Part shown: positions 2,150 through 55,416 of the stretch, one piece after another
How the letters are laid out: each line of letters starts with the position of its first letter
Numbering within the stretch: the first letter of the stretch is position 1
IMG/VR virus record: IMGVR_UViG_3300010149_005285
Span: 1 to 64,000 of that record
DNA from: a virus
Reading direction: 5' to 3' (one strand)
Length of the DNA: 64,000 nt
The notes under the pieces: generated by a model
Databases searched by the model: none
Told to the model about the DNA's origin: nothing
What the model saw: the letters and a program-made list of their open reading frames with translations, nothing else
Position numbers and translations under genes: made by a program

Positions 2150-2500
2150 ATGCAAACACAAATAGAAACATTAAAAGCTAAGATTAAAGCAGACTACATT
2201 AATTGGACTACTAGGGGTGGTACAAAAGAATTGTCAGGTTACTTTAAAGAAACTGTTGATAATTTTGATAATAGTATTACTGTTAAAGCCGGTAAGAAAT
2301 ATACAAAAATCATTAGAGATAATGGTGTTTGGGGTTTTATTGTTAATGACGATTTTGTAACGTCAAATGGTAAAACATTTAAAAAAGGTGATATTCTTAA
2401 AGCGGCAGGTTGGCAAGCACCAGCACTAAACAGTGCAAGGGGTAACATTTTTGATAGTGACTACTCTATTGCTTGGACTGGTCCTCATTATTTGAAATAG
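2150..2500 (+). CDS. Conserved hypothetical protein (116 aa)
   Basis: Soluble, mixed alpha/beta, with several glycines and no transmembrane segment. It begins a new transcription unit behind a strong host-type promoter and is followed within nine bases by the HD-domain gene. The central segment (KTFKKGDILKAAGW) looks like part of a small beta-barrel, but I cannot name a family. Confidence 0.7.
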   Translation: MQTQIETLKAKIKADYINWTTRGGTKELSGYFKETVDNFDNSITVKAGKKYTKIIRDNGVWGFIVNDDFVTSNGKTFKKGDILKAAGWQAPALNSARGNIFDSDYSIAWTGPHYLK

Positions 2501-2508
2501 GAAACAAA

Positions 2509-3024
2509 ATGGACATCATTCAAAAAGCAAAACTTTTCGCAACTGTGGCTCACGCCGCAGTTGGTCAGAAGAGAAAATATAGTGGAGACGATTACATCGT
2601 ACATCCAATCAGAGTTGCTAAACTTGTTAAAGAGAATGGCGGAACTGATGAAATGATTGCGGCGGCATTGCTACATGATGTTATTGAAGATACTCATGTA
2701 TCACCGGCAATGATTGCTGAAGAATTTGGTTGGGTAGTATTCAAGTATGTTCTTGAACTAACTGATACAAGTAAACCAGAAGATGGAAATCGTGCAGTAC
2801 GTAAAGGTATCGATGCTCAAAGACTTGGACTAGCAAGTAAAGAAGCACAGATCATTAAGTTAGCTGATCTAATTGATAACAGTGCTGACATAGAAGCAAA
2901 TGATCCTAAGTTTGCCGTAGTTTTCTTAAAAGAAAAGGCAAATCTTTTGGATATAATGACTAAAGTACATACTCACCCGTTGCATACAATTGCAGTAGGA
3001 GTAGTACATCAAATGGAAGGATAA
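2509..3024 (+). CDS. HD-domain (p)ppGpp hydrolase-like protein (SpoT/MESH1 type)
   Basis: Probably hydrolyses the alarmone (p)ppGpp or a related nucleotide, keeping the host in a growth-like state. Key residues of the small SpoT/MESH1 family are visible: RKYSGDDYIVHP with His32, the HD pair His56-Asp57 followed by IEDT, and KLADLIDN with Asp120. There is no synthetase or TGS domain, and the 171-residue length fits a free-standing hydrolase. I placed the start at ATG 2509, after the stop of the previous gene, rather than at an in-frame ATG inside it. Substrate is inferred from the family; other HD phosphohydrolases remain possible. Confidence 0.82.
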   Translation: MDIIQKAKLFATVAHAAVGQKRKYSGDDYIVHPIRVAKLVKENGGTDEMIAAALLHDVIEDTHVSPAMIAEEFGWVVFKYVLELTDTSKPEDGNRAVRKGIDAQRLGLASKEAQIIKLADLIDNSADIEANDPKFAVVFLKEKANLLDIMTKVHTHPLHTIAVGVVHQMEG

Positions 3025-4094: not shown

Positions 4095-4682
4095 ATGTTA
4101 ATACCAACAGTAATCGAGCAAACCGGTCGCGGCGAACGTGCATACGATATTTACAGTCGTTTGCTTAAAGATCGAATTGTAATGCTTAACGGAGAAGTTA
4201 ACGACCATAGTGCAAATCTAGTAGTTGCACAAATGCTATTTTTAGAATCGCAAAATAATGCAGAAGATATTAACTTTTATATTAATAGTCCAGGTGGTGC
4301 AGTAACCGCAGGACTTGGAATTTATGATACGATGCAGTTTATTAAATCTCCAGTAAGTACAATTGTAATGGGCCAAGCATGTAGTATGGGTAGTTTCCTT
4401 GCTATGGCAGGAGAGCCTGGTAAACGTTTTGTATTACCAAATAGTAGAACAATGATCCATCAACCAAGTGGTGGTGCAGGTGGACAAGCAACTGATATGG
4501 AAATTCAAGTAAAAGAAATTATGAAGATGAAAGAAAATCTTACTAAAATTTACGAAAAACATAACAGTGCAGGTAAAACTTACGACCAGTTAAAAGAAGC
4601 TATGGAACGTGATAACTTTATGTCGGCAGAAGAAGCAGTATCTTTTGGTCTTGCAGACAAAGTAGTTGTGCGTAAATCATAG
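4095..4682 (+). CDS. clpP: ClpP, ATP-dependent Clp protease proteolytic subunit
   Basis: A serine protease that forms the double-ring chamber of ClpXP and ClpAP. The catalytic triad is complete: Ser97 in MGQACSMGS, His122 in MIHQPSGG and Asp173 in ERDNF. The length (195 aa) and [14 protein letters not shown] start match bacterial ClpP closely. The ribosome site AGGAGA sits six bases before ATG. The matching unfoldases ClpX (7961) and ClpA (32146) and the adaptor ClpS (10496) are all in this window, and both unfoldases keep the ClpP-docking loop. The enzyme should therefore be functional with phage partners, though it could also mix with host subunits. Confidence 0.97.
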
Positions 4683-7525: not shown

Positions 7526-7971
7526 CAATTGACAACGATAGTTACACAGTAACAGCCCCAGATTTAATGTTAACCGAACATGGAATTGGAATATTCATTT
7601 CTAGTACCAATGAAATATTGATTACAGAAATAAAAGAATTATTTGAAAAATATATTGCCACAAGTGTAGTATTTTTTGTTCAGAATAAAAAAACTACTTC
7701 ATCTACTTTACCGTGGGTATGGAATGTAACAAAAACATCAGACTTTATGATTGTTGATGTAGATACATGTGCATGGGAAGATATAATGGCAGCACTTTTA
7801 AAATCAAAAGAAACTGAAAATACAGTTCTATTTTATAGTGATAAGTACAAGAGAAGAGAAACTGTAAAATTAATAAATGCTACAGGAACTAACTTAGTTG
7901 TACGGTCAGTACAAGATATAAATAATTTTGTAAGGTTACAAATGAATCCAGAGTTTTTCGATGAAATCTAA
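7522..7971 (+). CDS. Conserved hypothetical protein (149 aa)
   Basis: Sits between the coiled-coil membrane protein and ClpX, overlapping both (4 and 11 bases), so it is translated as part of the same operon. It reads as an alternating alpha/beta soluble protein with no membrane segment. A role as a Clp adaptor is suggested only by position. Confidence 0.7.
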   Translation: MTIDNDSYTVTAPDLMLTEHGIGIFISSTNEILITEIKELFEKYIATSVVFFVQNKKTTSSTLPWVWNVTKTSDFMIVDVDTCAWEDIMAALLKSKETENTVLFYSDKYKRRETVKLINATGTNLVVRSVQDINNFVRLQMNPEFFDEI

Positions 7972-9178
7972 TTTACCACATTGTAATTTCTGTGGTAAAG
8001 ATACATCTCAGATAAGCAAACTATTAGCAGGTGAAAACAACATACACATATGTAATACATGTGTAGAGTTTTGTTATGGCATAGTAAAAAATGACAAAAT
8101 TAAAGTTGCAGACGCATTACAAAAATCTAAAAAAACAGTAGTGCCAACACCACGTGCAATACATAAATTTTTAAACGAACATGTTATTAGTCAAGATCAT
8201 GCAAAGAAAACTTTAAGTGTAGCAGTATATAATCATTATAAAAGAATTACATCTAAAACAAAAACTAAACTACAAAAGAGTAACGTATTGATTGCAGGGC
8301 CAACTGGTACAGGTAAAACATTAATGGCACAAACACTTGCTAAATTGTTGAATGTTCCAATGGTAGTAACTGATGCAACCACTATAACAGAAAGTGGATA
8401 TGCTGGTGATGACTCAGAGGTTTTAATACATAAACTATTTCAAGCCGCTGATTACGATATAGAAAAAACTCAGCAAGGTATTATATATGTTGACGAGATA
8501 GATAAGAAAGCTAAACGTAATGACTATGTTAGTTTGAGTAGAGACGTTTCTGGAGAAGGTGTACAACAGAGCCTTTTAAAGCTCATGGAAGGTACAGTAG
8601 TAACGGTTCCGAACAAACCGCAACATAACCCGGAGAAAGTGGATATTGACACCAGTGAGATACTATTTGTAGTAGGTGGTGCCTTTGTTGGTCTACAAGA
8701 TGTTGTGGTAAATCGCCTTGGTAAGTCGAAGATAGGATTTAACGACGGTTTAGACGCCTTTATAGATAATTGGGAAACACATTTACAAACACGTGATTTA
8801 GTAAAATATGGGCTTATACCTGAATTTGTGGGTAGATTACCGTCTGTAAACGTGCTAAACCCCCTAAATAAGCAAGATCTTGTAAAAATACTAACTGAAC
8901 CCACAGATAGTATAATAGAGCAAATAAAAGAGCTTTTTGAGCTTGACAAAATAAAAATAGAGTTTACAATAAAAGCATTAGAAGAAGTAGCAGATATAGC
9001 TATAAAAGAAGAGATAGGAGCAAGAGGGTTACGTAAGATACTTGATTCATCTTTACTTGAAATACAATATAAGCTACCAGAATTATATGACCAAGGGGTA
9101 AGAAAAATTATTATTAATGAACAAGTTATTTCTAGAAACGCACAGCCACAATTTATTAAAGGTGAGAATGCAGAATAG
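7961..9178 (+). CDS. clpX: ClpX, ATP-dependent Clp protease unfoldase
   Basis: A AAA+ unfoldase that recognises tagged proteins and feeds them to ClpP. The N-terminal zinc domain has Cys8, Cys11, Cys31 and Cys34. Walker A is GPTGTGKT (113-120), Walker B IIYVDEID, and a sensor segment GARGLRKIL lies near the end. The ClpP-docking loop is present as SKIGFNDG. The 405-residue length is that of bacterial ClpX. It is followed by infC with overlap, so ClpX and IF-3 are made from one message. The zinc domain is the part that binds ssrA adaptors in bacteria, which fits the phage tmRNA at 17276. Confidence 0.97.
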   Translation: MKSNLPHCNFCGKDTSQISKLLAGENNIHICNTCVEFCYGIVKNDKIKVADALQKSKKTVVPTPRAIHKFLNEHVISQDHAKKTLSVAVYNHYKRITSKTKTKLQKSNVLIAGPTGTGKTLMAQTLAKLLNVPMVVTDATTITESGYAGDDSEVLIHKLFQAADYDIEKTQQGIIYVDEIDKKAKRNDYVSLSRDVSGEGVQQSLLKLMEGTVVTVPNKPQHNPEKVDIDTSEILFVVGGAFVGLQDVVVNRLGKSKIGFNDGLDAFIDNWETHLQTRDLVKYGLIPEFVGRLPSVNVLNPLNKQDLVKILTEPTDSIIEQIKELFELDKIKIEFTIKALEEVADIAIKEEIGARGLRKILDSSLLEIQYKLPELYDQGVRKIIINEQVISRNAQPQFIKGENAE

Positions 9179-9689
9179 AAATTTTAAAAAAAGAGACGAT
9201 AGACCTTTTGTTATTGCTAATGAAAAGATACGTCATAAAGAAATTAGAGTATCTAAAGAAGACGGTGAAAGCCAGATCATGTTTACTGTAGATGCTTTAA
9301 GAGAAGCACAAGGCTTGGATTTAGATCTAATTCTAATAGCGGATAAAGCAAATCCGCCTGTATGTAGAATTATGGATCTTAACAAGCATTTGTATTCTTT
9401 AAAACAAAAAGCAAAGCTGGCTAAGAAAAAGCAACGTGAAAGCGTTGTTGAGACCAAAGAAATACGTATGGGACTAAATATTGATACACACGATTTAGAA
9501 ACCAAAGCTAAACAAGCTCGTAAGTTTTTGGATAAACACAATAAACTAATGGTTACAGTTATATTGCGAGGTAGAGAACGTGGCAAACAAGATATGGCAA
9601 AAGAGTTGCTAAATACGTTTGCTTATTTGTTAGGAGTAAAGTACGAACAAATAAGTTCACAAAATAATAGAGTAACCGGGAAAATATAA
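9168..9689 (+). CDS. infC: Translation initiation factor IF-3
   Basis: Binds the 30S subunit and checks the start codon and initiator tRNA. Both domains are present: the N-terminal ANEKIRHKEIRV part with LNKHLYSLKQKAKLAKKKQ as the linker, and the C-terminal domain with MVTVILRGRERG. The 173 residues compare with 180 in E. coli, so it is full length. I started at ATG 9168 (GGTGAGA ribosome site), overlapping the clpX stop. Together with bS21 directly downstream it gives the phage control over initiation. It may bear on the leaderless late genes and on the AUU start proposed at 22684. Confidence 0.95.
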   Translation: MQNRNFKKRDDRPFVIANEKIRHKEIRVSKEDGESQIMFTVDALREAQGLDLDLILIADKANPPVCRIMDLNKHLYSLKQKAKLAKKKQRESVVETKEIRMGLNIDTHDLETKAKQARKFLDKHNKLMVTVILRGRERGKQDMAKELLNTFAYLLGVKYEQISSQNNRVTGKI

Positions 9690-9696
9690 AAACATT

Positions 9697-9936
9697 ATGG
9701 GAAATAATCATAGAGACAGAAAAGGCGGCAACGGTTTAACCGTAGAAGTGCGTAATAATAACGTTGAACAAGCAATTAGAAAACTTAAAAAAATGATTGC
9801 TAAAGATGGAATTATGCAAGAAGTCCGTGAGCGTAGACACTTTGTAAGTAATACAGAAAAACGACTTAAAGCAGAAGCAGCAGGCCGTGCTAGACATCGT
9901 AGACGTATTGCTAAAGATAAGTTTACTAACAACTAA
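9697..9936 (+). CDS. rpsU: Ribosomal protein bS21
   Basis: A small subunit protein placed near the anti-Shine-Dalgarno end of 16S rRNA. The family core is clear: EVRNNNVEQAIRKLKKMI, then FVSNTEKRLKAEAAGRARHRRR with the typical basic C-terminus. Length 79 aa fits. bS21 is easily exchanged on ribosomes, and marine phages are known to encode it, so the phage copy can replace the host copy and alter message choice. It follows infC by seven bases. Confidence 0.95.
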   Translation: MGNNHRDRKGGNGLTVEVRNNNVEQAIRKLKKMIAKDGIMQEVRERRHFVSNTEKRLKAEAAGRARHRRRIAKDKFTNN

Positions 9937-9949
9937 TTTACAGAATTTG

Positions 9950-9964
9950 TCCACATAATGTGGA
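9950..9964. repeat. Palindrome overlapping a late promoter box
   Basis: A perfect inverted repeat TCCACAT-A-ATGTGGA directly after the rpsU stop. Its right end overlaps the late box GATAAATA (9963-9970). It may be the hairpin of a weak terminator or a protein-binding site. Confidence 0.55.
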
Positions 9965-9970
9965 TAAATA
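9963..9970 (+). promoter_or_regulatory. T4-type late promoter box before hsp20
   Basis: GATAAATA, the most common late box in this window. Transcription from it would give a leader of about 82 bases before ATG 10058. Confidence 0.6.
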
Positions 9971-9975
9971 ATAAT

Positions 9976-10057
9976 GTATACAACAGGACTGATTCCTACC
10001 GTATACATGGAATGCCGAAAGGGTTCCAAAAATCTTGCTTAACAAAGGAGAACAATT
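9976..10057 (+). promoter_or_regulatory. Possible ROSE-like RNA thermometer in hsp20 leader
   Basis: The leader ends with TTGCT (10035-10039) and an AGGAG ribosome site (10046-10050) in a small hairpin. Pairing UGCU with AGGA through a G-G mismatch is the hallmark of ROSE thermometers, which precede small heat-shock genes in alphaproteobacteria. A second hairpin (GGAA/TTCC, about 10010-10026) lies upstream. This is read by eye, not folded by a program. Confidence 0.4.
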
Positions 10058-10483
10058 ATGACAAGACTAACAACACTAAACCTTCCAGACTTTTATAAAG
10101 CTACTATTGGCTTCGATAGAATGTTTGATGATATGCAGAATGCATTTACAACAAACGCAACAGGCGGTTATCCACCTTACAATATTGTAAAGGAAAGCGA
10201 TACTAGCTACACTATCAGCCTAGCAGTTGCAGGGTTTGATAAGGAAGAACTAACAATAGAACAAGACGGTAACACATTATCAATTTCAGCAGAAAAGAAA
10301 GAAGCTGATGATAAAGTTGAATACTTGCATAAAGGCATTGGAACTAGAAGCTTTAATAGAGAATTTAGTTTAGCTGATTATGTAGAAGTAACATCGTCTA
10401 AATTAGATAATGGTATTCTAATCGTTACATTGGAACAAAATATTCCAGACGAAAAGAAACCAAGAACAATTAACATTGATTAA
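10058..10483 (+). CDS. Hsp20 small heat-shock protein
   Basis: An alpha-crystallin type holdase that keeps unfolded proteins soluble. The crystallin domain spans about residues 30-130, with the typical YTISLAVAGFDKEELTI and GTRSFNREFSLADYV strands and LDNGILIVTLE near the end. T4-like marine phages often carry Hsp20, thought to protect virion proteins during assembly. Here it stands between rpsU and clpS, so it is part of a protein-quality block. Confidence 0.93.
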   Translation: MTRLTTLNLPDFYKATIGFDRMFDDMQNAFTTNATGGYPPYNIVKESDTSYTISLAVAGFDKEELTIEQDGNTLSISAEKKEADDKVEYLHKGIGTRSFNREFSLADYVEVTSSKLDNGILIVTLEQNIPDEKKPRTINID

Positions 10484-10495
10484 TAGGTAAAATAA

Positions 10496-10798
10496 ATGGC
10501 TCAAGTATCACAAGAAGAAGTTGCAGAAATCACTAAATTAAGTTCACCACCAAAGTTTAATGTGATTATACTTAATGACGAAAGCACTCCTCAAGACTTT
10601 GTAGTTAATATTTTACAAGTTATTTTTAACAAAACTATTGACGATGCACAGTCTGTGATGCTTGAAGTCCATGAAAAGGGCAGAGGAATTGCAGGAACAT
10701 ATAGTTATGAGGTAGCTGAACAAAAATGTGTTGAGACTATCACTGACGCAAGACGCAATGGATTTCCATTAGACGTCACTTTAGAAAAGACAGAATAA
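10496..10798 (+). CDS. clpS: ClpS, ATP-dependent protease adaptor
   Basis: Binds the N-domain of ClpA and brings in proteins with bulky hydrophobic N-terminal residues (the N-end rule). The family core is visible: PKFNVIILNDESTPQDFVV with the NDE stretch, then VMLEVHEKGRGIAGTYSYEVAE and the terminal PLDVTLEK. Length 100 aa is normal. A phage ClpA at 32146 provides the matching unfoldase. In bacteria ClpS also turns ClpA away from ssrA-tagged substrates, which would leave those to ClpX. Confidence 0.95.
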   Translation: MAQVSQEEVAEITKLSSPPKFNVIILNDESTPQDFVVNILQVIFNKTIDDAQSVMLEVHEKGRGIAGTYSYEVAEQKCVETITDARRNGFPLDVTLEKTE

Positions 10799-11387: not shown

Positions 11388-11804
11388 ATGAAAATAGGAT
11401 TTACATGCAGTACTTTTGATTTACTCCATGCTGGACATATTGGCATGTTAAGAGAAGCAAAAGCACATTGCGATTATTTAATTGTAGGATTACAAAGCGA
11501 TCCAACATTAGACAGACCAGATACAAAAAACAAACCAATTCAAACAATGGTAGAACGTTATGCACAACTTAACGCATTAAAGTTAGTTGACGAAATTGTT
11601 CCTTACCAAACAGAACAGGATTTAATTGACATACTAGAGTTATTTCAATTAGATGTTAGATTCTTAGGTGAAGAATATAGAGAAAAAGAATTTACAGGAA
11701 AAGATATATGTCGCAAACGTGGCATTGATCTACATTTTAACAAACGAGACCATAGGTTTAGTACAACAGATTTAAGAAAAAGGGTATGTAACAATGAGAA
11801 TTGA
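11388..11804 (+). CDS. Cytidylyltransferase-like nucleotidyltransferase (TagD/GCT type)
   Basis: Transfers CMP or a related nucleotide to a phosphorylated alcohol. The HxGH signature is His14-Ala-Gly-His17 in FDLLHAGH, and the C-terminal [11 protein letters not shown] matches the family STT-x-LR segment. 138 residues is the usual length of glycerol-3-phosphate cytidylyltransferase. It lies between the amidotransferase and GMP reductase (11-base overlap), so the three may serve one small-molecule or surface-polymer pathway. Substrate is inferred only. Confidence 0.85.
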
Positions 11805-12918
11805 AAACGAAGTAAAACTTGATTATAGTGATGTTCTTATTAGACCAAAACGTAGTACGTTACAAAGTCGTAAACAAGTAAGACTTGAACGTAAATTTGA
11901 ATATAGGAATAGTAAGGAAACTTACGAAGGTATTCCTATTATGGCAAGTAACATGGATGGTGTTGGTACATTTGAAATGGCAGACAAACTTGCTGAAAAT
12001 AATATCTTTACATGTCTAGTTAAAACATATACAGTAGATCAACTTGTAGAATACTTTAATAGTGATAATCCAAAACGTACAGAAAATGTTGCAATGAGTA
12101 TTGGCACAAGTGATGCTGACTTTTTAAAGTTAGTTGATGTACAATCAAAAGTTAAAAGTAATTTGAAATATGTATGTATGGATATTGCAAATGGTTACAG
12201 TGATCACTTTGCGGCAAGAGTGCGTAAGGTACGTGATCAGTTTTCAAATATTGTAATTATAGCAGGTAACGTAGTTACTGGAGAAATGACAGAGGAGTTA
12301 ATTTTAAGTGGAGCTGATATTGTTAAAGTGGGCATTGGTCCCGGGTCTGTTTGCACTACTAGGATTCAAACTGGTGTTGGATATCCGCAGTTATCGGCAG
12401 TTATCGAATGTGCAGATGCCGCCCATGGACTTGGGGGTCACATTATTGCTGACGGCGGGTGTACTTGCCCTGGAGATGTCGCTAAGGCCTTTGCAGGTGG
12501 AGCAGATTTTGTTATGCTTGGTGGCATGCTTGCTGGGCACGATCAAGGCGGCGGCAAAGTAATTACTAAATTTTATACAACAAATGAATTAGAATATGAA
12601 GTAGGCGAGCATTTAAATAATCGCAAACAAAAGATAGAAGAAAAACATTTTGTGCAATTCTACGGTATGAGTAGTGATGCGGCAAACACTAAACACTTTG
12701 GTGGACTAAAAGATTATCGTAGTAGTGAAGGACGTGAAGTACTTGTACCATATCGTGGTGAAGTTGCTAATACACTTCAGGATATACTAGGTGGGTTACG
12801 CAGTACATGCACATATGCAGGTGCATTAAAGTTAAAACAACTTAGTAAGTGTACAACATTTGTAATGGTAAACAATCAATATAATCGTACATACGAAGGC
12901 ACAACAACAAAACTATAG
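11794..12918 (+). CDS. guaC: GMP reductase / IMP dehydrogenase family protein
   Basis: A TIM-barrel enzyme that, in GMP reductase, converts GMP to IMP with NADPH. The active-site loop GPGSVCTTR carries the catalytic Cys, [16 protein letters not shown] and [16 protein letters not shown] form the phosphate-binding region, and the N-terminus [15 protein letters not shown] is typical. There is no CBS insert, and the 374-residue length favours GuaC over IMP dehydrogenase. A role in shifting purine pools for viral DNA is plausible. Confidence 0.9.
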
Positions 12919-16746: not shown

Positions 16747-17244
16747 TTGTTGAAAGTAATCAGAGATTCAATTGATAACTTTTTTAAATGGGTATCATCT
16801 AGCGAATTAGTTGAACTAACAAATATTGATGTTTCAGAAGATCCAGTAAGGCCTAATTTGGATCTAGAGTTTAGAACAACTTGGGGCAGACAAATATTTG
16901 GACTAAAGCATAACGATGAAATACATGGAATTATATGTATAGCATATTGTAATGATGTACCCCAAAGCGAAAGAGAACTAAGTCTAATAAGTCAGAATGC
17001 TAACTTACGTGATAATGCTAGTATAGCGATAGCATACACAGTATGGTCACGTAAGAAAGGCGCTGGCAGAGAAATTGTAGCAAAATTAAAAGATTACTAC
17101 CAATCAAATAGTAAAATTGAAAGATTAATTACATTATCTCCATTAACACCAGTAGCAACACATTTCCATATTAGTAATGGAGCAAAGTTGTTGCAACATA
17201 ACCATAATACACAAAATTTTGAATATACACTAAAAAAAGGTTGA
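16747..17244 (+). CDS. GNAT-like acetyltransferase
   Basis: The second half fits the GNAT fold: IAYTVWSRKKGAGREIVAKL contains a variant of the acetyl-CoA binding loop (RKKGAGRE), followed by THFHISNGAKLL as the last strands. It starts with TTG (16747 or 16750) behind a GGAG site within the end of the peroxiredoxin gene, so the two are coupled. The acceptor is unknown. Confidence 0.7.
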   Translation: MLKVIRDSIDNFFKWVSSSELVELTNIDVSEDPVRPNLDLEFRTTWGRQIFGLKHNDEIHGIICIAYCNDVPQSERELSLISQNANLRDNASIAIAYTVWSRKKGAGREIVAKLKDYYQSNSKIERLITLSPLTPVATHFHISNGAKLLQHNHNTQNFEYTLKKG

Positions 17245-17269
17245 CAGTAACAACCTTAGAGTGTATAAA
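17241..17269 (+). promoter_or_regulatory. Sigma70-like promoter of tmRNA
   Basis: TTGACA (17241-17246), 17 bases, TATAAA (17264-17269). The -10 region is also part of a TATAAATA late box, so the tmRNA may be transcribed both early and late. Confidence 0.85.
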
Positions 17270-17275
17270 TAGTAA

Positions 17276-17590
17276 CTGCAACGTTGAAGCAATTTGACGA
17301 CTAGCCAGGACCTCGGGGCAGTACCGAGCAGCTCCACCATATACGTTTCAAGAAAGTGCCCGATCTAAAGGGCGTGAAGTGTAGGAACGTATTTGATGGG
17401 GCTGAACTAGGATCGACTGATAGGATAGAAAAGTGGAGTTGCCCGGATCTAAGCTCGGTTAACGCGAAGAAAAACTATAATTGCAAACGACAATTATCAG
17501 CCAGAAATGGCATTAGCGGCTTAGTTAAACTAAGCACGTAGGGGTGGGTACTACCTGGCAACAGAAGTGCCTCCAAATAATAGAATTTGG
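17276..17590 (+). ncRNA. ssrA: Circularly permuted two-piece tmRNA
   Basis: Rescues stalled ribosomes and tags their products. The acceptor piece comes first: a T-arm-like CTCGG/CCGAG hairpin and AGCTCCACCA ending at 17339. A 58-base spacer follows (17340-17397), closed by ATACGTT/AACGTAT. The coding piece then begins with GGGGCTGAACTAGGATCGAC at 17398. Its GGGGCT pairs with AGCTCC of the acceptor piece, forming the acceptor stem. The tag frame runs 17483-17524 and encodes ANDNYQPEMALAA. GCCAGG (17304-17309) and CCTGGC (17554-17559) can pair across the break. Permuted tmRNA is the alphaproteobacterial form. The 3' end is approximate; a CCAAAT/ATTTGG hairpin ends at 17590. Confidence 0.92.
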
Positions 17591-17616
17591 GATCATTTAT
17601 AAATTAAGGAACATTT

Positions 17617-18307: not shown

Positions 18308-18384
18308 GGACCATTAGCTCAGCTGGATAGAGCGCCTGTCTACGGAACAGGAGGCCAGGAGTTCGAATCTCTTATGGTCCGCCA
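18308..18384 (+). tRNA. tRNA-Arg (ACG)
   Basis: A full cloverleaf with acceptor GGACCAT/ATGGTCC, D-arm GCTC/GAGC, anticodon stem CCTGT/ACAGG with loop CTACGGA (anticodon ACG at 18342-18344), T-loop TTCGAAT and an encoded CCA. It reads CGN codons after deamination of A34. Confidence 0.95.
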
Positions 18385-20986: not shown

Positions 20987-21063
20987 CCGCTCTTAGCTCA
21001 GCTGGATAGAGCAACTGCCTTCTAAGCAGTAGGTCACAGGTTCGAATCCTGTAGAGCGGGCCA
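20987..21063 (+). tRNA. tRNA-Arg (TCT)
   Basis: Acceptor CCGCTCT/AGAGCGG, anticodon stem ACTGC/GCAGT with loop CTTCTAA (anticodon TCT at 21021-21023), T-loop TTCGAAT, CCA encoded. Reads AGA and AGG, codons used heavily by this AT-rich phage. Confidence 0.95.
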
Positions 21064-21068
21064 ATTCA

Positions 21069-21153
21069 GCCTCCTTGATGGAATAGGTAGACATAACAGA
21101 CTTAAAATCTGTGGCCATATGGCGTCCCGGTTCGAGTCCGGGAGGAGGCACCA
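21069..21153 (+). tRNA. tRNA-Leu (TAA)
   Basis: A class II tRNA of 85 bases with a long variable arm, acceptor GCCTCCT/AGGAGGC, loop CTTAAAA (anticodon TAA at 21103-21105) and encoded CCA. Reads UUA, the commonest Leu codon here. Confidence 0.95.
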
Positions 21154-21158
21154 AACAT

Positions 21159-21235
21159 ACTCTTGTAGCATAGCGGTCTAATGCCACCCGCTCATAACGG
21201 GTCGATCACAGGTTCGAATCCTGTCGGGAGTACCA
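21159..21235 (+). tRNA. tRNA-Met or tRNA-Ile2 (CAT)
   Basis: Anticodon stem ACCCG/CGGGT with loop CTCATAA (CAT at 21193-21195), T-loop TTCGAAT, CCA encoded. The acceptor stem contains two G-T pairs. It lacks the GGG/CCC anticodon stem of initiator tRNA. Elongator Met and Ile (with lysidine at C34) cannot be told apart by eye. Confidence 0.88.
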
Positions 21236-21245
21236 AAAACATTAA

Positions 21246-21321
21246 GGGCCCTTAGCTCAGTTGGTAGAGCAACTGACTTTTAATCAGTAGGTCGATGGTT
21301 CGAACCCATCAGGGCTCACCA
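21246..21321 (+). tRNA. tRNA-Lys (TTT)
   Basis: Acceptor GGGCCCT/AGGGCTC with one G-T pair, anticodon loop CTTTTAA (TTT at 21279-21281), T-loop TTCGAAC, CCA encoded. Reads AAA and AAG, which are very common in this window. Confidence 0.95.
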
Positions 21322-24056: not shown

Positions 24057-25298
24057 TTGGACGTGAAAGACGATAATGATTTGCAACGAGAACAAGGAAT
24101 CTATAAAGAGTATTCTAAAGTAGAACATGGCAAAGCATGGTGTCCTATACCTTTTAACGCTATAAGTTTTCACCCAACAGGTGTATTAACCCGTTGTATG
24201 ATGAGTGATGTACCTATGGGTGAAGACTTTGATAGTGAAGAAATGCAAAAACTTCGTACTGATATGCTTAACGGCATTTGGGATAAAGAAGGTTGCATTA
24301 ATTGCCTTAAGAAAGAAGAACAAGGCAACATAAGTCAAAGACAAAAATGGTTACAACGTAACCCACAAGATTTCAAAAACACAGATGGATATATAAATCC
24401 AAAAGTAACAGGTAATCCTGTTAATCATATGTTTATCAACTACAGTAATATTTGTAATTTTAAATGTAGAATGTGTAGCCCAGGATATAGTAATAGTCTT
24501 ATTCCAGAGCATAAACATCTAAATACACTTGGACTAGGTAGAAAAGTTAAACCAGAAATTATCAAAAATAGAAATTTCATTAATACATACTTAAAAGAGA
24601 ATCCAGAAAAATTAGATAGTTTGTCAAGTATATGGATTACAGGCGGCGAACCGTTTATGGATGATAATTGTTTTGAGCTTATGGACATATTAAATGAATA
24701 TGATAAGTCATTTGATATGGATGTTGTAATTACTACAAATGGATCTAAAGTAGATCTTAATAAATTACAAAAGTTTGAGAATTTAAAATGGTTTGAACTT
24801 GATTTAAGTATTGATGCACCAAGCAAGATGTTTGAATATATGCGTAGTGATGGGTTATGGAAATGGGAACAGATGCGTAGCTTAATAGATGATCTAATGC
24901 ATTTTAAAAAACAGAATGACAGTTGGTTCAATATGTGCTATAATTCTAGCATTCAAGCATATAATTTTGACACAGTAGTTGAATTTAACGAATTATGCAA
25001 AGAAGCAGGTGCATTAAACAATACAAGGATGTTAATATTTCCTGAACATTTAAGATTAAATGTACTACCGTTAGATATTCGTATGCAAGAATATGAAAAA
25101 ATAAAAGATTATAAAGTGGTAAATGACCCAAGGTTTCAAAGAACATTTGATGATGTACTTAAAAACTTACAGGCACCGCAAGCAAGAAAAGAAATGGTAG
25201 ACAAGTTTAAAATATTTACAAAAGCACAAGATAAATACAGAAACAAAACAATGCTTGATTATCACAAAACATTAGGTAACTTTATATATAATGAATAA
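24057..25298 (+). CDS. Radical SAM protein with N-terminal twitch/SPASM-like cysteines
   Basis: A [4Fe-4S] enzyme that generates radicals from AdoMet. The cluster motif CxxxCxxC is at Cys133, Cys137 and Cys140 (NICNFKCRMC), followed by a GGEPF motif near residue 198. Before the barrel lie Cys29, Cys47, Cys80 and Cys83, which may hold an extra cluster, in the reverse of the usual SPASM order. Start is TTG 24057 or GTG 24063, both after AAGGG. It is about as long as, and clearly paralogous to, the next gene. Substrate unknown. Confidence 0.85.
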   Translation: MDVKDDNDLQREQGIYKEYSKVEHGKAWCPIPFNAISFHPTGVLTRCMMSDVPMGEDFDSEEMQKLRTDMLNGIWDKEGCINCLKKEEQGNISQRQKWLQRNPQDFKNTDGYINPKVTGNPVNHMFINYSNICNFKCRMCSPGYSNSLIPEHKHLNTLGLGRKVKPEIIKNRNFINTYLKENPEKLDSLSSIWITGGEPFMDDNCFELMDILNEYDKSFDMDVVITTNGSKVDLNKLQKFENLKWFELDLSIDAPSKMFEYMRSDGLWKWEQMRSLIDDLMHFKKQNDSWFNMCYNSSIQAYNFDTVVEFNELCKEAGALNNTRMLIFPEHLRLNVLPLDIRMQEYEKIKDYKVVNDPRFQRTFDDVLKNLQAPQARKEMVDKFKIFTKAQDKYRNKTMLDYHKTLGNFIYNE

Positions 25299-26583
25299 CC
25301 CAACAGATATAAACAAAGATAAATTTATTATACCTGCAGAAGACATTGTTACTAAAGTAGTAGAAGATGATAACTGGAAAAACCTTCATAGTAAGAGTTG
25401 GTGTCCAGTTCCTTTTAATACTATTAGTTGGCATCCGTCTGGCGTAGTAAGTCGTTGTATGATGAGCGATGACGATATGGGAGAAAGCCACGACAGTAAA
25501 GAAATGCAATCATTACGTCAAAATATGCTTGACGGTAAATGGGATACTTATGGATGTACCAACTGTTTAAATAGAGAAAAGAATGGACAAAAAAGTCAAC
25601 GTATGAATTGGCTTGGAAAAAGTATGATGGATCAGCTAGGAAATCCTGAACCATATCGTACTCCACAATTAAAAGGAAATAAAATAAGTCACTTATTTGT
25701 AAACTTCAGTAACGTATGTAATTTTAAATGTAGAATGTGTAGTCCAAATTATAGTAATAGTTTGATACCTGAAGCTAAACATATGAATAGTAAGTTTCCT
25801 AGAGAATACAAAAAGTTTCAATGGGCTAATCCAAAAAACTTTAATAGTATTATTCCTTACTTAGAAAACAATCCAAAAGTATTAAAAGGTATTAGAAGTA
25901 TTTGGATGACAGGTGGTGAGCCATTTATGGATGATAGTCCATACAGATTAATGGAACTTATTGAAGAATTTGGACATCCAGAAAAAATTAAAATGGTTAT
26001 TACTACTAATGGATCTAAACTAGATGTAAGTAGATTAGGTGCATTTGAAAAATTAAAAAAACTTACACTTGATATTAGCATCGATGCCGCAGGACCTATG
26101 TTTGAATATATGCGTAGTAATAGAGTATTTACATGGAGTCAAATGGAAGAACAATGTGGGAAATTATCTAAGTTCTCACAAGAGAACAAATGGTTTGGAA
26201 TACAAATTAATGCCAGCTATCAAATATTTAATTATGACAATACACTAGACTTTTTAGATTTTGTATATGATCATAAAGCTGATAGTAATTTAAGATTAGT
26301 TGTGTTTCCAAAACATCTAAGAGCAGGTAACTTACCAGATTCGTATAAAAAAGATGCACATAACATTATTAATAAAGCAGAATTAAGATATCACAATAAA
26401 GATGTACACAATATTAGAACACTTAATGATATGCGAAGAGCCCTTGATACTAAAGAACATCACTTAACAGTATTTCAAGAGTTAGTACGTGAACAAGATA
26501 AATTTAGAGAAATATATTTACATGAATATCATGAGGTATTAGCAGAAATAATTTACGGACCAAAACAACCATGCCTGTTTTAG
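25291..26583 (+). CDS. Radical SAM protein, paralogue of the upstream gene
   Basis: Overlaps the previous gene by eight bases and repeats its layout: SWCPVPFNTISWHPSGVVSRC near residues 37-56, CTNC near 89-92, cluster motif Cys143, Cys147, Cys150 (NVCNFKCRMC), and TGGEPFMDD. The pair arose by tandem duplication and is cotranscribed, so the two may work together or on related targets. Target unknown; peptide or protein modification is usual for SPASM/twitch enzymes. Confidence 0.85.
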   Translation: MNNPTDINKDKFIIPAEDIVTKVVEDDNWKNLHSKSWCPVPFNTISWHPSGVVSRCMMSDDDMGESHDSKEMQSLRQNMLDGKWDTYGCTNCLNREKNGQKSQRMNWLGKSMMDQLGNPEPYRTPQLKGNKISHLFVNFSNVCNFKCRMCSPNYSNSLIPEAKHMNSKFPREYKKFQWANPKNFNSIIPYLENNPKVLKGIRSIWMTGGEPFMDDSPYRLMELIEEFGHPEKIKMVITTNGSKLDVSRLGAFEKLKKLTLDISIDAAGPMFEYMRSNRVFTWSQMEEQCGKLSKFSQENKWFGIQINASYQIFNYDNTLDFLDFVYDHKADSNLRLVVFPKHLRAGNLPDSYKKDAHNIINKAELRYHNKDVHNIRTLNDMRRALDTKEHHLTVFQELVREQDKFREIYLHEYHEVLAEIIYGPKQPCLF

Positions 26584-31492: not shown

Positions 31493-32159
31493 CCCTTGGT
31501 TTATTCTAGGAGTAGAGCCAAACGCTTCTCTTAGAGAAATAAAGCAAGCATACAAAAGGTTAGCATTAAAAAATCATCCAGACAAAGGCGGAACAATTGC
31601 TGAATGGTTAAATATAAGTAAAGCATACGAAACAATCACACAACAAAAACATGTACCAATCATAAAAGCATCAGATACTAAAATGTTTAATATAGCTCTA
31701 TCTTTAAAACAACAAATAGAAGGTTTAAATGATTATATTCAAGTTGAAGATGAAGAAGAATTATTCATAAAAGTTAGCATTCCGCCTGGTGCATTAGCTG
31801 GTGATAAGTTTAAAGTTACTAATAAAGGCAAAAAATATATAATAAATGTTAAAGAATTGGCAGATAAGGTCTTTACAAGAAACGGAAATAATATTATAAT
31901 GTATAAAACATTAGATATAATTGACGTATTGAAATGTAACACATTTATTATTTTAACTCCTATGGGCGACTATTGCGAAATAGATATTCCACCAGGAACA
32001 GAAACAGGAAGTATTATCAGTGTCAAAGAGCAAGGATTATATAACCGAAAAACAAAAAAGAGAGGAAGTTTAAGAATTAATATAAAAGTAAATATTCCAC
32101 ATATAACTGACTCTAATATTAATGAATTTATAAAAAGGCTTAAAGATGACAGACATTGA
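31476..32159 (+). CDS. J-domain co-chaperone (DnaJ-like)
   Basis: The J domain occupies about residues 7-60, with the HPD motif at 34-36, and should stimulate host DnaK. The rest resembles the C-terminal substrate-binding domains of DnaJ/CbpA (FIKVSIPPGALAGDKFKVTNKG and CEIDIPPGTETGSIISVKEQG), without the zinc-finger region. It overlaps the spanin gene before it and clpA after it, joining chaperone and protease functions in one operon. Confidence 0.88.
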   Translation: MKTFNNPWFILGVEPNASLREIKQAYKRLALKNHPDKGGTIAEWLNISKAYETITQQKHVPIIKASDTKMFNIALSLKQQIEGLNDYIQVEDEEELFIKVSIPPGALAGDKFKVTNKGKKYIINVKELADKVFTRNGNNIIMYKTLDIIDVLKCNTFIILTPMGDYCEIDIPPGTETGSIISVKEQGLYNRKTKKRGSLRINIKVNIPHITDSNINEFIKRLKDDRH

Positions 32160-34407
32160 AAAAATTGTAATAACTGCTATTAACTTGGCTAAAAAGTTTA
32201 AACACGAATATGTTACTATTGAACATTTGGCAGCGGTTATTTTAGATGATCCACAAGTAATAGCTATGTGTTACGAGATTAATGCAGATGCAGAAAGTTT
32301 GCAAATAGCATTAATTGAATATCTAGAAAAAGAATGTAGTGAATTAGTATCAAATACTAAAGAAGAACCAAACCCTGCTAAAACACAAATGCTTGAACGT
32401 GTATTTAATAGAGCATTGACACAAGCCTTATTTCAAGGCAAGAAAGCAATTAATCAATTAGACTTAGTGTTAAGTATACTAGGTGAAGAACACAGTGTAT
32501 CAGCAAAATATGCAGAGCAGTTAGGTCTAAACAAAAACAAAGTAATGAGTTGGATGCAAGATACTGCCGCAATGAAAGATGAACAAATTTTTGGTCCTAT
32601 GGATGGCTTTGCACCGGGCGTAGGCGGACATGCTCAAAGACAACCTACACCACGTGAAGTATTAGTACAGTATTGTAATAATATGAATGAAGCAAGTCAA
32701 GATTATGATGATGTTGTTGGTCGTAGATCAGAATTAAAAGATTTAGTACAAACAGTAGCACGTAAGAAAAAGTCTAATGCTATTTTAACAGGTGGCAGTG
32801 GCGTTGGTAAAACAGCTATTGTACAAGGATTAGCAAAACTTATTGTAGAAGGACAAGTTCCAGATTTAATTAAAGACAAAGTAGTATGGGAACTAGATAT
32901 GACAAAACTAGTTGCTGGTACAAAATATAGAGGTGACTTTGAAGAACGTATGAAACAATTAGGTGAGGCGTTAATTAAAGAACCTAATATTATTTTGTTT
33001 ATTGATGAAATACATCAAATAATTGGAGCAGGTAGTACAAACGGTACTATGGATGCTGGTAATATGTTAAAACCTGCATTAAGCAGTGGACAGTTAAAAG
33101 TCATTGGTGCTACAACAGATGAAGAATATAGAAAAGTATTTGAAAAAGAAAGTGCGTTAGCACGTAGGTTTACAAAGATTGTAGTTGATGAACCTAATTT
33201 ACAAGATGCAAAAGAAGTATTAAAAAATACACTTATATCATATGAAGATTATCATAATGTAACAATTGATCCATCAGCAGCTGATCTTGCAGTTGATTTA
33301 AGTGATCAATATATTTTTAATAAGAAACTTCCAGATAAAGCATTTGATATCATTGATAGAGCATGTGCTTTTAATAGAATATTACCAGAAACAGATCGTG
33401 TAACAATTATTGGAGACAATGAAATAAGATCAGAAGTAGCACGGTTAACTGGAATACCAAAAGAGCATTTAGGAACAGCAGAAGATAAAGAAACTGCTAC
33501 AAAACATACAGAAGTAAAAGCATTTTTAGAAAGTACAGTATTTGGACAACAACAAGCAATTGATCGTGTGGTAGATAGTATTACAGTAAGTATGGCAGGA
33601 TTAAAAGATCCTATCAAGCCTATTGCAAGCTATTTGTTTACAGGACCAACTGGTGTTGGTAAAACTGAACTTGCAAAACGTTTATCACAAACAATGAGTA
33701 TGAAACTTGTACGGTATGATATGGCAGAATATCAAGAACGTCATACAGTATCAAAACTTATTGGATCGCCTCCAGGTTATGTAGGACACGGTGATGGTAA
33801 AGCAGGTGATGGATTATTAATTAGTCAATTAGAAGACAATCCAAATTGTGTACTACTACTAGATGAAGTTGAAAAAGCACACCCAGATTTAATGAGTGTA
33901 CTATTGAGTCTATTAGACGAAGGTACACTTACAAGTAGTACAGGTAAAGTTGTAAGTGCAAAAAATTCAATTATTATTATGACAAGTAATTTAGGTGCAA
34001 AAGATGCATCAATTAAAACAATAGGATTTAACGAAGAAACGTTTAATCATAAAGCAGTAGATGATGCAGTTAAGAATTTCTTTGCCCCAGAATTCCGTAA
34101 CAGGTTAGACGGCATTGTTAAGTTTAATGCATTAGCAAGAAATGATATGAAACGTATTGTTGTTAAATTCTTAGGCGAACTAGAAACATATGTAGATTCT
34201 AGGCATATTGTTATTAATTGGGGACCTGAATTATTGGCTATGCTTGAAGATAAAGGATACGACCCTACTATGGGTGCTAGACCTTTAGCACGATTAATTA
34301 ATGAAGAAGTAAAACTACCATTAGCAAAATATCTTCTAGATCATGACGGCCAATACACATTGGATATTGACTATAAGAAAGATAAGTTGCTGATTAATGG
34401 AAAATAA
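32146..34407 (+). CDS. clpA: ClpA, ATP-dependent Clp protease unfoldase
   Basis: A two-ring AAA+ unfoldase. It has the N-domain repeat (about residues 1-140) that binds ClpS, Walker A1 GGSGVGKT (about 218) with FIDEIHQIIGAG, and Walker A2 GPTGVGKT (about 500) with LLLDEVEKAHPD. There is no ClpB-type middle coiled coil. The ClpP-docking loop is present as KTIGFNEE (about residue 624), at the place of the IGL loop in E. coli ClpA. Length 753 aa matches ClpA (758). With ClpP and ClpS also encoded, a complete phage ClpAPS system can be assembled. Confidence 0.95.
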   Translation: MTDIEKIVITAINLAKKFKHEYVTIEHLAAVILDDPQVIAMCYEINADAESLQIALIEYLEKECSELVSNTKEEPNPAKTQMLERVFNRALTQALFQGKKAINQLDLVLSILGEEHSVSAKYAEQLGLNKNKVMSWMQDTAAMKDEQIFGPMDGFAPGVGGHAQRQPTPREVLVQYCNNMNEASQDYDDVVGRRSELKDLVQTVARKKKSNAILTGGSGVGKTAIVQGLAKLIVEGQVPDLIKDKVVWELDMTKLVAGTKYRGDFEERMKQLGEALIKEPNIILFIDEIHQIIGAGSTNGTMDAGNMLKPALSSGQLKVIGATTDEEYRKVFEKESALARRFTKIVVDEPNLQDAKEVLKNTLISYEDYHNVTIDPSAADLAVDLSDQYIFNKKLPDKAFDIIDRACAFNRILPETDRVTIIGDNEIRSEVARLTGIPKEHLGTAEDKETATKHTEVKAFLESTVFGQQQAIDRVVDSITVSMAGLKDPIKPIASYLFTGPTGVGKTELAKRLSQTMSMKLVRYDMAEYQERHTVSKLIGSPPGYVGHGDGKAGDGLLISQLEDNPNCVLLLDEVEKAHPDLMSVLLSLLDEGTLTSSTGKVVSAKNSIIIMTSNLGAKDASIKTIGFNEETFNHKAVDDAVKNFFAPEFRNRLDGIVKFNALARNDMKRIVVKFLGELETYVDSRHIVINWGPELLAMLEDKGYDPTMGARPLARLINEEVKLPLAKYLLDHDGQYTLDIDYKKDKLLINGK

Positions 34408-49540: not shown

Positions 49541-50719
49541 ATGACAGACAAATATTGTATATATACAAATAACTTTACATTCGTTGACAATGACGGGTAT
49601 GTAGCGTTATGTTGTAAAAACTTAAAAAACAAACTAGATCAATATCATATTAAAGATTATAAATTAAGTGATATTTGGAACAGTCCAGAAATGCATAGTG
49701 TTAGAGCAGAAATTGCCGACGGCGGTGAACCTATGGGTTGCTTTAAATGCTACGATCCAGAACGTGAAGGAGTACGTAGTTTTAGACAAAAAGCATTAGG
49801 AATGATTAATAAAGGTGTTCCATTTCAAGATGAAAAAATACATGCACTTGATTTAAGACTAGGTAATGTATGTAACTTAGCATGTGTAATGTGCTTTGCA
49901 GGTAACAGTAATAAAATATTACAAAATCATAAAACTATGGCAACACATTTTAATTGGAAAGAAGGCCGTTTAGAAAAAGAAGCAAAAAAATATCACAAAA
50001 GCAATTACGATTGGAGTGATGATCCAAGAGCGTGGGACAACATTATTAGTAGTGTTGACAAAGATTTAAAACATGTATACCTAGCAGGAGGTGAACCTTT
50101 TTATCTTAAAAACTTTCCAACAACAGTACAACGTTTAGGATCACTTGCACCCAATGCTCGTTTTGTTATTAATACAAATGGTACAAGACTACTAAGAGAA
50201 AAAGATTTAGAAAAGTTTAAAACTGTTGAAAATGTAAATTTAAGATTTAGTATTGACGGTTGGGGCAAAGCAAATGATTGGACTAGACAAGAAGATGTAT
50301 GGGAAGAAAAAATTGCAGTTATGGACCAATACTATAAAGAATTTAAATTGCGTATATGGGATATTACAGCCAACAGTTTAAGTGTAAGACATATTCCACA
50401 ACTAATAAAATACTTATGGGAACATTACCCAAATGCTAAAGTACAAATAAGACCGGTTATTAACAAAACTGAAGTTCTTATGGAAAACATTCCAGATAGA
50501 TTTAAAGCAGAATCATTAAAATTCTTCGAAGACAATAAACAAAAACTAGAAGGTGTTGATCATGTTATAAATGAAATGCGAAGACCTTTTAACAATGATC
50601 CAAAACGTAAAGCAACAGTTAAACAATTTGTTGAATATTACGATACCTACGGAGCAGTTACAATGGAAAGTTTTGATCCAGAGCTAGCTGATTGGATCTA
50701 TGGCGATGCAGAAGAATAG
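49541..50719 (+). CDS. Radical SAM protein with N-terminal SPASM-like cysteines (392 aa)
   Basis: Cluster motif Cys111, Cys115, Cys118 (NVCNLACVMC), with LAGGEPF near residue 187. The N-terminus has Cys6, Cys24, Cys25, Cys67 and Cys70 (CYIYTN..., LCCKN, CFKC), a SPASM/twitch-like set placed before the barrel. A host-type promoter points to early expression. It overlaps the next, paralogous gene. Target unknown. Confidence 0.85.
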   Translation: MTDKYCIYTNNFTFVDNDGYVALCCKNLKNKLDQYHIKDYKLSDIWNSPEMHSVRAEIADGGEPMGCFKCYDPEREGVRSFRQKALGMINKGVPFQDEKIHALDLRLGNVCNLACVMCFAGNSNKILQNHKTMATHFNWKEGRLEKEAKKYHKSNYDWSDDPRAWDNIISSVDKDLKHVYLAGGEPFYLKNFPTTVQRLGSLAPNARFVINTNGTRLLREKDLEKFKTVENVNLRFSIDGWGKANDWTRQEDVWEEKIAVMDQYYKEFKLRIWDITANSLSVRHIPQLIKYLWEHYPNAKVQIRPVINKTEVLMENIPDRFKAESLKFFEDNKQKLEGVDHVINEMRRPFNNDPKRKATVKQFVEYYDTYGAVTMESFDPELADWIYGDAEE

Positions 50720-51914
50720 TTTTTGTTCAATTCCTTGGATACACTCAGCAACTAAAACAAATGGTGCAAGCAGAGTATGTTGTTTAATGAGCAACTACGA
50801 CACCGGTAATGGTGGACAAACTGGTCATAATTTTAAAACTCACACAATAGAAGAAATACATAATAGTGAATTTACTCGTAAAATTCGTAAACAATTCTTA
50901 GCAGGAGAAAAACCTGTTGAATGTGCTACATGTTGGACAAAGGAAGCCAATGGCGGTAAAAGTAGACGTACATTTACAAATAATATGTATAAAGATATAA
51001 TTGATTATGATAAAGCAGTTAAGTTAACTACTCCTGATGGCAGTACAACACAAATGCCTATATATTGGGATTTGCGTTTTGGTAATTTATGTAATTTAAA
51101 ATGTGTAATGTGTGGACCACAAAGTAGTAGTATGTGGTATAAAGATTGGGCAAGTGTATATAACACTGACCATTTTTATGATAGTAATACAAAAATAGAA
51201 ATTAACAATAAAGATGATTCTAATTATGATTGGTGGAAAAGTGAACACTTCTGGCAACAATTAGAAAATAATATAGATCAATTACAACATGTATATCTAG
51301 TAGGTGGAGAACCTATGCTTATTGAAAATCATTATGTGTTTTTACAAAAGCTAATAGATAAAGGTGTAAGCAATAATGTTACATTAGAATATGATACAAA
51401 TATTACAAATGTACATCAACGTGCTATTGAGCAATGGAAACATTTTAAAAAACTAATGCTTAGAGTAAGTATAGATGATTTTGGAGAACAAAACGATTAT
51501 ATACGTTTTCCTAGTAAATGGTATAAGCTAGATGAAAATATAAAACGTATTGAGGCGTTATTACCAAACACACAAATAGAAATAAGTATTACATGGCAAG
51601 TACTTAATGCTTTTACATTTTTAAAATTGTTAGATCATTTTAAAAAGTATCACATTAATATAAGAATATTATCAGCACCACGTATGTTTGATTGTAAACA
51701 ATTATCTAAGCAATCAAAGCTAGATTTAATAAATATGTATGAGAATTCAGTACATAGACGTAAAATACAACACTTAATAAACTATCTTAGAATGACTATG
51801 GACTATGAAGGCAATATATACGAATGTGCTGATTTTTTGGAAAGATTAGATGTTTTGAGAAAAACAAGTTGGCAAAATACATTCAAAGACTTGTTTAAAT
51901 CGATAAATACTTAA
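50700..51914 (+). CDS. Radical SAM protein with N-terminal SPASM-like cysteines (404 aa)
   Basis: Paralogue of the upstream gene: Cys9, Cys27, Cys28, Cys75 and Cys78 precede the cluster motif Cys131, Cys135, Cys138 (NLCNLKCVMC), then LVGGEPM. The start is ATG 50700 or 50706, inside the end of the previous gene. The two enzymes may form a heterodimer or act in sequence. Confidence 0.85.
   Translation: MAMQKNSFCSIPWIHSATKTNGASRVCCLMSNYDTGNGGQTGHNFKTHTIEEIHNSEFTRKIRKQFLAGEKPVECATCWTKEANGGKSRRTFTNNMYKDIIDYDKAVKLTTPDGSTTQMPIYWDLRFGNLCNLKCVMCGPQSSSMWYKDWASVYNTDHFYDSNTKIEINNKDDSNYDWWKSEHFWQQLENNIDQLQHVYLVGGEPMLIENHYVFLQKLIDKGVSNNVTLEYDTNITNVHQRAIEQWKHFKKLMLRVSIDDFGEQNDYIRFPSKWYKLDENIKRIEALLPNTQIEISITWQVLNAFTFLKLLDHFKKYHINIRILSAPRMFDCKQLSKQSKLDLINMYENSVHRRKIQHLINYLRMTMDYEGNIYECADFLERLDVLRKTSWQNTFKDLFKSINT
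51902..51909 (+). promoter_or_regulatory. T4-type late promoter box
   Basis: GATAAATA within the last codons of the radical-SAM gene, 18 bases before ATG 51928 with AAAAGGA between. The late operon therefore begins inside an early gene. Confidence 0.68.
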
Positions 51915-54500: not shown

Positions 54501-54794
54501 ATGGAAAAAATTTATCCAAAATGCGAAAATGCAGAACGTTTGTATGTTACATCAAATAGCCAGATAAGACCTTGTTGTTGGTTAGGTGAAGCAGGTTCAA
54601 TAAACAAAAGTCCTAAATGGAATTTAAATACTAATACAATTGAAAATATTCTTGACATTGAATTAAAAAAATATGTAGAGAATTTAAAAAAAGATCCTAA
54701 AACATGGGCACAAAAAGCATGTTGGAAACAATGTAGTAAACCATTTACTTCAGTAAACAGACCAACAGAAAATTGGGTATATGTAAATGAATAA
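54501..54794 (+). CDS. Stand-alone SPASM-like Cys protein (97 aa)
   Basis: Cys8, Cys25, Cys26, Cys74 and Cys78 are spaced like the N-terminal SPASM/twitch segments of the radical-SAM proteins at 49541 and 50700 (for example SNSQIRPCCWLG against GYVALCCKN). It lacks a CxxxCxxC motif and ends eight bases inside the next gene, which encodes a short radical-SAM core. The pair looks like a split enzyme. Confidence 0.65.
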   Translation: MEKIYPKCENAERLYVTSNSQIRPCCWLGEAGSINKSPKWNLNTNTIENILDIELKKYVENLKKDPKTWAQKACWKQCSKPFTSVNRPTENWVYVNE

Positions 54795-55416
54795 CGGTAT
54801 GTTACTTCATCTGGAAATGAGCAAGCGTTGTATACTTGAATGTCCAAAATGTCCTAGAACTATATACAAAGGTAGGTATGAAATAGATGATCTTAATATT
54901 GATCATGCAAAAGAATTAGTAATCAAAACTAAACCACGTGTAGTAAATATGTGTGGTAATTTAGGTGATCCAATATATCATCCTAGATTAATAGAATTTA
55001 TAACATGGTTAGAAAAAGAAAATTATCATTGGGATCTACATACAAATGGATCAGGTAAAAAAGAAAGTTGGTGGCAAGAATTATATGATTGTTATGAAAC
55101 TAAATACAATAAGATATGGTTCGGAGTTGATGGCTTAGCTGATACTGCTCACAATTATAGAGTTGGTATAAACTGGCAACAATCATTTGATGCTATGTGC
55201 TTAGGAGTAAAACAAGGAAAAGATATTTATTGGCAATGGATACCTTTTAGCTTTAATGAACATCAAATTGATGAGGCTAAAAAGTTAGCTACTGATAATG
55301 GAATTAATCTTGTCCTTAGACTAAGTGCTAGATGGGATGAAAACGATCCGTTAAAACCATCGCCAAAATGGCTTCCAACAGAAGGACATGATGGCAATAT
55401 AAAGGAAATATTATGA
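54787..55416 (+). CDS. Short radical SAM protein (209 aa)
   Basis: Cluster motif Cys15, Cys19, Cys22 (KRCILECPKC) stands almost at the N-terminus, and NMCGNLGDPIYHP replaces the usual GGEP. It has only the barrel, truncated compared with about 400 residues for its relatives. The Cys-rich module is encoded just upstream as a separate protein with an eight-base overlap. Confidence 0.75.
   Translation: MNNGMLLHLEMSKRCILECPKCPRTIYKGRYEIDDLNIDHAKELVIKTKPRVVNMCGNLGDPIYHPRLIEFITWLEKENYHWDLHTNGSGKKESWWQELYDCYETKYNKIWFGVDGLADTAHNYRVGINWQQSFDAMCLGVKQGKDIYWQWIPFSFNEHQIDEAKKLATDNGINLVLRLSARWDENDPLKPSPKWLPTEGHDGNIKEIL

Follow-up and report, generated by a model that had tools for sequence, protein, structure and literature searches.

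Why would a virus encode translation initiation factor IF-3, and why would it place the gene between those of ClpX and ribosomal protein bS21? The question is raised by a stretch of viral DNA of 64,000 nucleotides, referred to here as the window and taken from a virus record of 71.3 kb (IMG/VR IMGVR_UViG_3300010149_005285; all window features given below lie on the + strand).

Organization of the locus

The IF-3 gene, infC (9168-9689), starts with ATG at 9168, ends with TAA at 9687-9689 and encodes a protein of 173 amino acids. It follows clpX (7961-9178) and precedes rpsU (9697-9936), the gene of bS21. A preliminary description of the sequence had placed infC across the clpX stop, rpsU seven bases behind infC and all three genes in one operon. 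The coordinates bear this out, with an overlap of 11 nt between clpX and infC and a start of rpsU 7 nt past infC, and a single operon is likely; no other terminator-like site was found on the + strand between 3900 and 13000. A putative Shine-Dalgarno (SD) sequence of infC, AAAGGTG (9158-9164), is located within clpX.

The ClpX zinc finger and AAA_2 domains exceed their Pfam cut-offs; also kept are the zinc-finger cysteines, Walker A (113), GYAGDD in the pore loop and, in the ClpP-docking loop, IGF (258). bS21 (Ribosomal_S21, 50.7 bits, cut-off 27) is extended at its N-terminus by a basic stretch of about 14 residues. Downstream of rpsU follow a structured leader (9937-10057), the small heat-shock protein gene hsp20 (10058-10483; Pfam HSP20, 72.2 bits) and the gene of the adaptor ClpS (10496-10798; Pfam ClpS, 92.5 bits). 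The gene of the serine protease subunit ClpP (4095-4682; Pfam CLP_protease, 268.9 bits), whose GQACSMG, MIHQ and ERD stretches align to solved ClpP in the PDB alignment, sits 3.3 kb upstream of the clpX-infC-rpsU block, and a clpA-like gene for an unfoldase with two AAA domains is found at 32146-34407.

Several further genes were observed in the window. An IMP dehydrogenase/GMP reductase gene (11794-12918), kept in relatives, lies downstream of the block, and an HD-domain protein (HD_4; 2473-3024) resembles the hydrolase half of (p)ppGpp enzymes and might act on the stringent response. Radical-SAM-type regions extend over 24057-26583, 49541-51914 and 54787-55416. Pfam confirms two radical-SAM proteins, one at 24057 and one, which also has SPASM, at 49541; ORFs next to them have similar N-termini and look like more members, a number unusual for a phage.

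Identity and origin of the viral IF-3

The infC product is a true two-domain IF-3. Both Pfam domains score above the curated cut-offs (IF3_N 76.5 bits, IF3_C 69 bits), the gene falls into PHROG 9787, and an AlphaFold2 model built from 47 sequences (pLDDT 86.6) has both domains as well as the linker helix and superimposes on 30S-bound IF-3 (5lmn_X) with TM scores of 0.78/0.80. Of the 86 positions of the IF3_C profile only 1-62 are matched, the final strand being divergent. The earlier term 'full-length' thus fits the fold, all IF-3 elements being present in the model, but not the C-terminal segment, which is shortened in a protein that ends at 173 amino acids. The gene is under purifying selection: comparison with relatives at 82-84% protein identity gave a dN/dS of about 0.12, a value that is approximate because dS is near 0.9. 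Judged from its sequence, the copy looks working.

This IF-3 is not host-identical: the best bacterial identity in the scan was 51%, and the phage proteins are split from the bacterial ones in a tree. In this tree of 97 rows, the phage sequences lie on one side of a branch and the bacteria on the other with an SH-aLRT support of 84, which is not strong, and 44 of the 47 phage sequences are split from bacteria plus Rhizobiales phages with a support of 97. The infC gene is therefore no recent host copy. In an alignment search of viral contigs, L009 alone as query returned only itself. Two records were left out as bacterial: CAKLQH020000014.1 (L015), filed as an Acinetobacter phage, has the genes in the bacterial chromosomal order thrS-infC-rpmI-rplT and is a contaminant or mislabelled, and in OR844993, filed as a phage record, infC and clpX are 4 kb apart.

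Conservation of the block across viruses

Viral contigs were fetched by IF-3 and by ClpX and copies were removed. Among 60 distinct ClpX-bearing contigs, clpX, infC and rpsU are adjacent and in this order in 48, a repetition that argues against a chance arrangement; the proportion cannot be extended to phages at large, because the ClpX query came from the same family and the ClpX set comprised the best 80 of 270 matches. Within 5 kb downstream, the 48 block contigs carry clpS in 43 cases and hsp20 in 41, and clpP was found within 8 kb upstream in 26 of them, where the fragment reaches. The block members span a wide range, with identities down to 43% for ClpX and 24% for IF-3, and the proteins diverge together: Mantel correlations were 0.95 between ClpX and IF-3 distances and 0.91 between IF-3 and bS21 distances, values reached in 0 of 2000 permutations. 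Among 80 bacterial infC loci, none had ClpX, ClpS, ClpP or Hsp20 within about 4 kb and one had an S21 match. The infC gene is optional in the block, since L139 and L144 carry clpX-rpsU-clpS without it, and in the complete genome of Pseudomonas phage Paride rpsU directly follows clpX, hsp20 and clpS come further downstream and IF-3 is absent.

The C-domain of IF-3 at the start codon

In Thermus thermophilus, Arg91, Arg123-Gly124-Arg125 and Arg159 of IF-3 have been placed at the start codon, where they touch A+1, U+2 and the tRNA stem (Hussain 2016, PMC5037330). By alignment these residues were taken as R99, R131-R133 and R168 in Escherichia coli numbering. The window IF-3 retains Y75, K110, R131, G132 and R133, while R99 is replaced by G and R168 by N, which is followed by an Arg that may stand in for R168. 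The start-codon-facing part of the C-domain, proposed earlier as the place to look for alterations, thus appears to be altered in some of its residues.

R99 is the residue usually cited for start-codon discrimination, and the infC362 allele is R99L. Of 29 alphaproteobacteria sampled, 28 have R at this position; it is S in 61 of 80 members of a Clostridia-rich bacterial sample and H, G or T in a second bacterial group (the phylum of G002, a record titled Ectothiorhodospiraceae with IF-3s that do not look proteobacterial). Because S, H or G are often found here outside the alphaproteobacteria, the loss of R99 alone says little, and it was rejected as sole proof of relaxed start selection.

At R168, 132 of 136 bacteria have R or K and 46 of 56 phage sequences have N. 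The stretch from R133 to M170, that is from the RGRE motif to strand 4, measures 37 residues in 133 of the 136 bacteria and 34 residues in 30 of the 56 phage sequences, including the clade of the window, a length seen in none of the bacteria; the alignment spreads the missing three residues over the helix-strand loop and the hairpin and singles out neither. The C-domain thus appears virus-specific at the sequence level, with R168 replaced and the RGRE-to-strand-4 segment shorter in the window's clade.

Start codons and Shine-Dalgarno use

Most of the bacterial infC examples listed offer AUU, AUC or AUA, together with an SD, at the matching place, the AUU-type start being a known self-limiting arrangement in bacteria. 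The phage infC genes start with ATG, GTG or TTG, mostly with an SD. The conserved genes of the window begin with ATG in 76 cases, GTG in 4 and TTG in 2, an ATG share of 93% that is somewhat inflated by a start picker favouring ATG, and an SD-like motif precedes 48 of these 82 genes compared with 70 of 447 internal ATGs. When conserved phage genes were screened for non-canonical starts, 35 ORFs were flagged and none was accepted by eye; nearly all were either conserved leaders in which a few codons precede an ATG, or shadow ORFs on the antisense strand. In its reliance on SD and AUG the phage resembles an ordinary user of the initiation machinery and gives no sign of needing relaxed starts, so that these data lend no support to the proposed preference for phage messages.

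A structured leader upstream of hsp20

The region between rpsU and hsp20 (9937-10057) is conserved in L002 (6777-6888), L105 (from 2101) and L131 (from 7998). It is predicted to form three hairpins (fold z -4.7) followed by UCUUGCUU, which is able to pair with the hsp20 SD AAGGAGA, as is an invariant ATCTTGCTTAA held by the leader, and 7 of 13 consensus pairs show two-sided changes. The match to the ROSE RNA thermometer (RF02523) reaches 20.7 bits, below the cut-off of 43. The leader is thus ROSE-like and may still act as a thermometer via the anti-SD UUGCU hairpin before hsp20.

A linked tmRNA

The window also contains a two-piece (permuted) tmRNA of the alphaproteobacterial type (17237-17615; RF01849, 103.2 bits, cut-off 50) with the tag ANDNYQPEMALAA read by ARAGORN. 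It lies 8 kb downstream of the block, outside the operon; five tRNA genes (Arg twice, Leu, Met, Lys) are found near it, at 20987-21321 and 18308-18384. An alpha-type tmRNA above the Rfam cut-off is present in 15 of 28 records with the module, many of those lacking it being fragments. All 15 share the strand of infC and lie at a distance of 7-15 kb from it, some upstream and some downstream, and 14 give a readable tag, usually ANxNYxPEMALAA. Eleven tags end in ALAA, AMAA or KLAA, most of them with LAA, and two in IAA; a C-terminal LAA is a known ClpX signal. The tmRNA type points to Alphaproteobacteria as a possible host, but the phage Melnitz has an alphaproteobacterial-type tmRNA and infects another class.

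Relation to known viral systems

A viral IF-3 had been thought rare or undescribed, which proved wrong: 97 phage records, including a few bacterial contigs filed as phage, match in tblastn searches, many jumbo phages are annotated with IF-3, and the factor is mentioned in the literature. IF1/IF3 and S21 are named as tools that redirect host translation in the huge-phage study (Al-Shayeb 2020, PMC7162821), a 2021 jumbo-phage survey mentions IF3, and clpX has been reported beside IF-3 in Sinorhizobium phage AP-J-162 (PMC11242549).

Like the window, the jumbo phages Asteriusvirus 121Q, RaK2, GAP32, CBB, Vibrio phage 2.275.O, Atu_ph07 and Phosso encode a two-domain IF-3, but its RGRE-to-strand-4 segment lacks the three-residue shortening of the window's clade. 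Parts of the arrangement recur: in Vibrio phage 2.275.O, rpsU and a ClpS/L7-L12-like gene come after infC, in CBB clpS comes after infC, and in Atu_ph07 and Phosso infC comes after clpX. The whole order clpX-infC-rpsU-hsp20-clpS occurs in none of the inspected jumbo-phage isolate records. AP-J-162 belongs to a Rhizobiales jumbo phage lineage that is closer to bacterial IF-3 in the tree; S21 and L7/L12 are present in its genome, S21 not being adjacent to clpX and IF-3.

Viral S21 proteins with basic N-terminal extensions, like that of the window, occur in the huge-phage set, for which a clpX operon or tmRNA linkage was not found in the passages covered (PMC7162821). For bS21 phages, Hsp20 and Clp genes have been described among the common bS21 neighbours, and bS21 of HTVC008M enters E. 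coli ribosomes (Chen 2022, PMC9723584; Mizuno 2019, PMC6375957). In the main clades of Chen 2022 (PMC9723584), bS21 is grouped with structural genes, on the opposite strand, and no mention of IF-3 was found. The aquatic phage Melnitz, one of the phages from which a two-piece tmRNA was already known, combines the alphaproteobacterial two-piece ssrA with bS21, and no mention of Clp or IF3 was found in that paper (PMC9004378). In the open-access literature, no description was found of a clpX-infC-rpsU phage operon, nor of the order clpX-infC-rpsU-(hsp20)-clpS, the co-divergence of ClpX and IF-3, the nearby tmRNA or the virus-specific C-domain.

Possible roles of the block

The reading that we favour, and to which we give an even chance, is that a virus-adapted IF-3 acts on the host 30S subunit and serves recycling and restart within a conserved phage block that takes over and polices translation. 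With gene identity, order and conservation observed, we infer all of its biochemical steps. The tmRNA would free ribosomes stalled on broken messages and attach an LAA-ending tag to the fragments, and phage ClpX or ClpA, with ClpP and ClpS, would clear the tagged and other host proteins. Phage IF-3, which would escape the AUU-type self-limitation of host infC because it is made from a canonical start codon, would hold the freed 30S away from the 50S, ready for initiation, and phage bS21 would refit that subunit's SD platform. With its changed C-domain, IF-3 would be expected to alter the duration or strictness of P-site inspection. This reading is supported by the conserved gene order, the co-divergence of ClpX and IF-3, the linked tmRNA and the retained ClpX and ClpP motifs, as well as by the canonical infC start, the low dN/dS and the fold match; it is weakened by the optional infC, by a tmRNA outside the operon and by the possibility that the adjacency of the genes reflects no more than timing.

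Simpler or more specific roles are conceivable. A passenger copy could merely lift the supply of IF-3 and bS21 in a slow host, with neither selectivity nor coupling to proteolysis; removal of self-limitation by the canonical start, retention of the IF-3 fold and of most 30S-facing residues and the members without infC would suit such a dosage effect, which we consider rather unlikely given an old, separate viral IF-3 clade with a changed C-domain, a fixed neighbourhood and co-divergence with clpX across a wide range. Slightly more doubtful is the model of the preliminary description, in which start selection is reprogrammed by IF-3 and bS21 to the advantage of phage over host messages. The replacements of R99 and R168, the 34-residue segment and the adjoining bS21 gene speak for it and are the sole positive evidence; the variability of R99 in bacteria, the Arg after N168 and the retained Y75, K110 and R131-G-R133 speak against it, and the benefit of a changed discrimination is obscure for a phage whose genes resemble those of the host in relying on SD and AUG. 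It is also imaginable that phage ClpXP or ClpAPS degrades host IF-3 or bS21 while the operon supplies the phage versions, a swap that would fit the translational coupling of clpX to infC, with rpsU next, and the direct joining of clpX to rpsU in Paride; nothing points to either host protein as a substrate, and this explanation seems very improbable.

Phage translation factors are usually listed singly, as loose takeover genes. Here IF-3 and bS21 are kept as a unit with ClpX, Hsp20 and ClpS in highly divergent viral contigs, and a viral tmRNA is often nearby, which suggests that translation restart and product removal are one viral task. In its broadest form, to which we give a rather low probability, the proposal is of a widespread and old operon in which ribosome rescue and proteolysis, by tmRNA, ClpX/P/A/S and Hsp20, are linked with the refitting of the 30S by bS21 and a phage-specific IF-3 with a shortened P-site segment. 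If this is true, host ribosomes would be stripped from host messages, their products cleared, and the ribosomes restarted under viral initiation rules. The virus-specific C-domain offers a natural set of variants for the old question of the role of IF-3 at the start codon.
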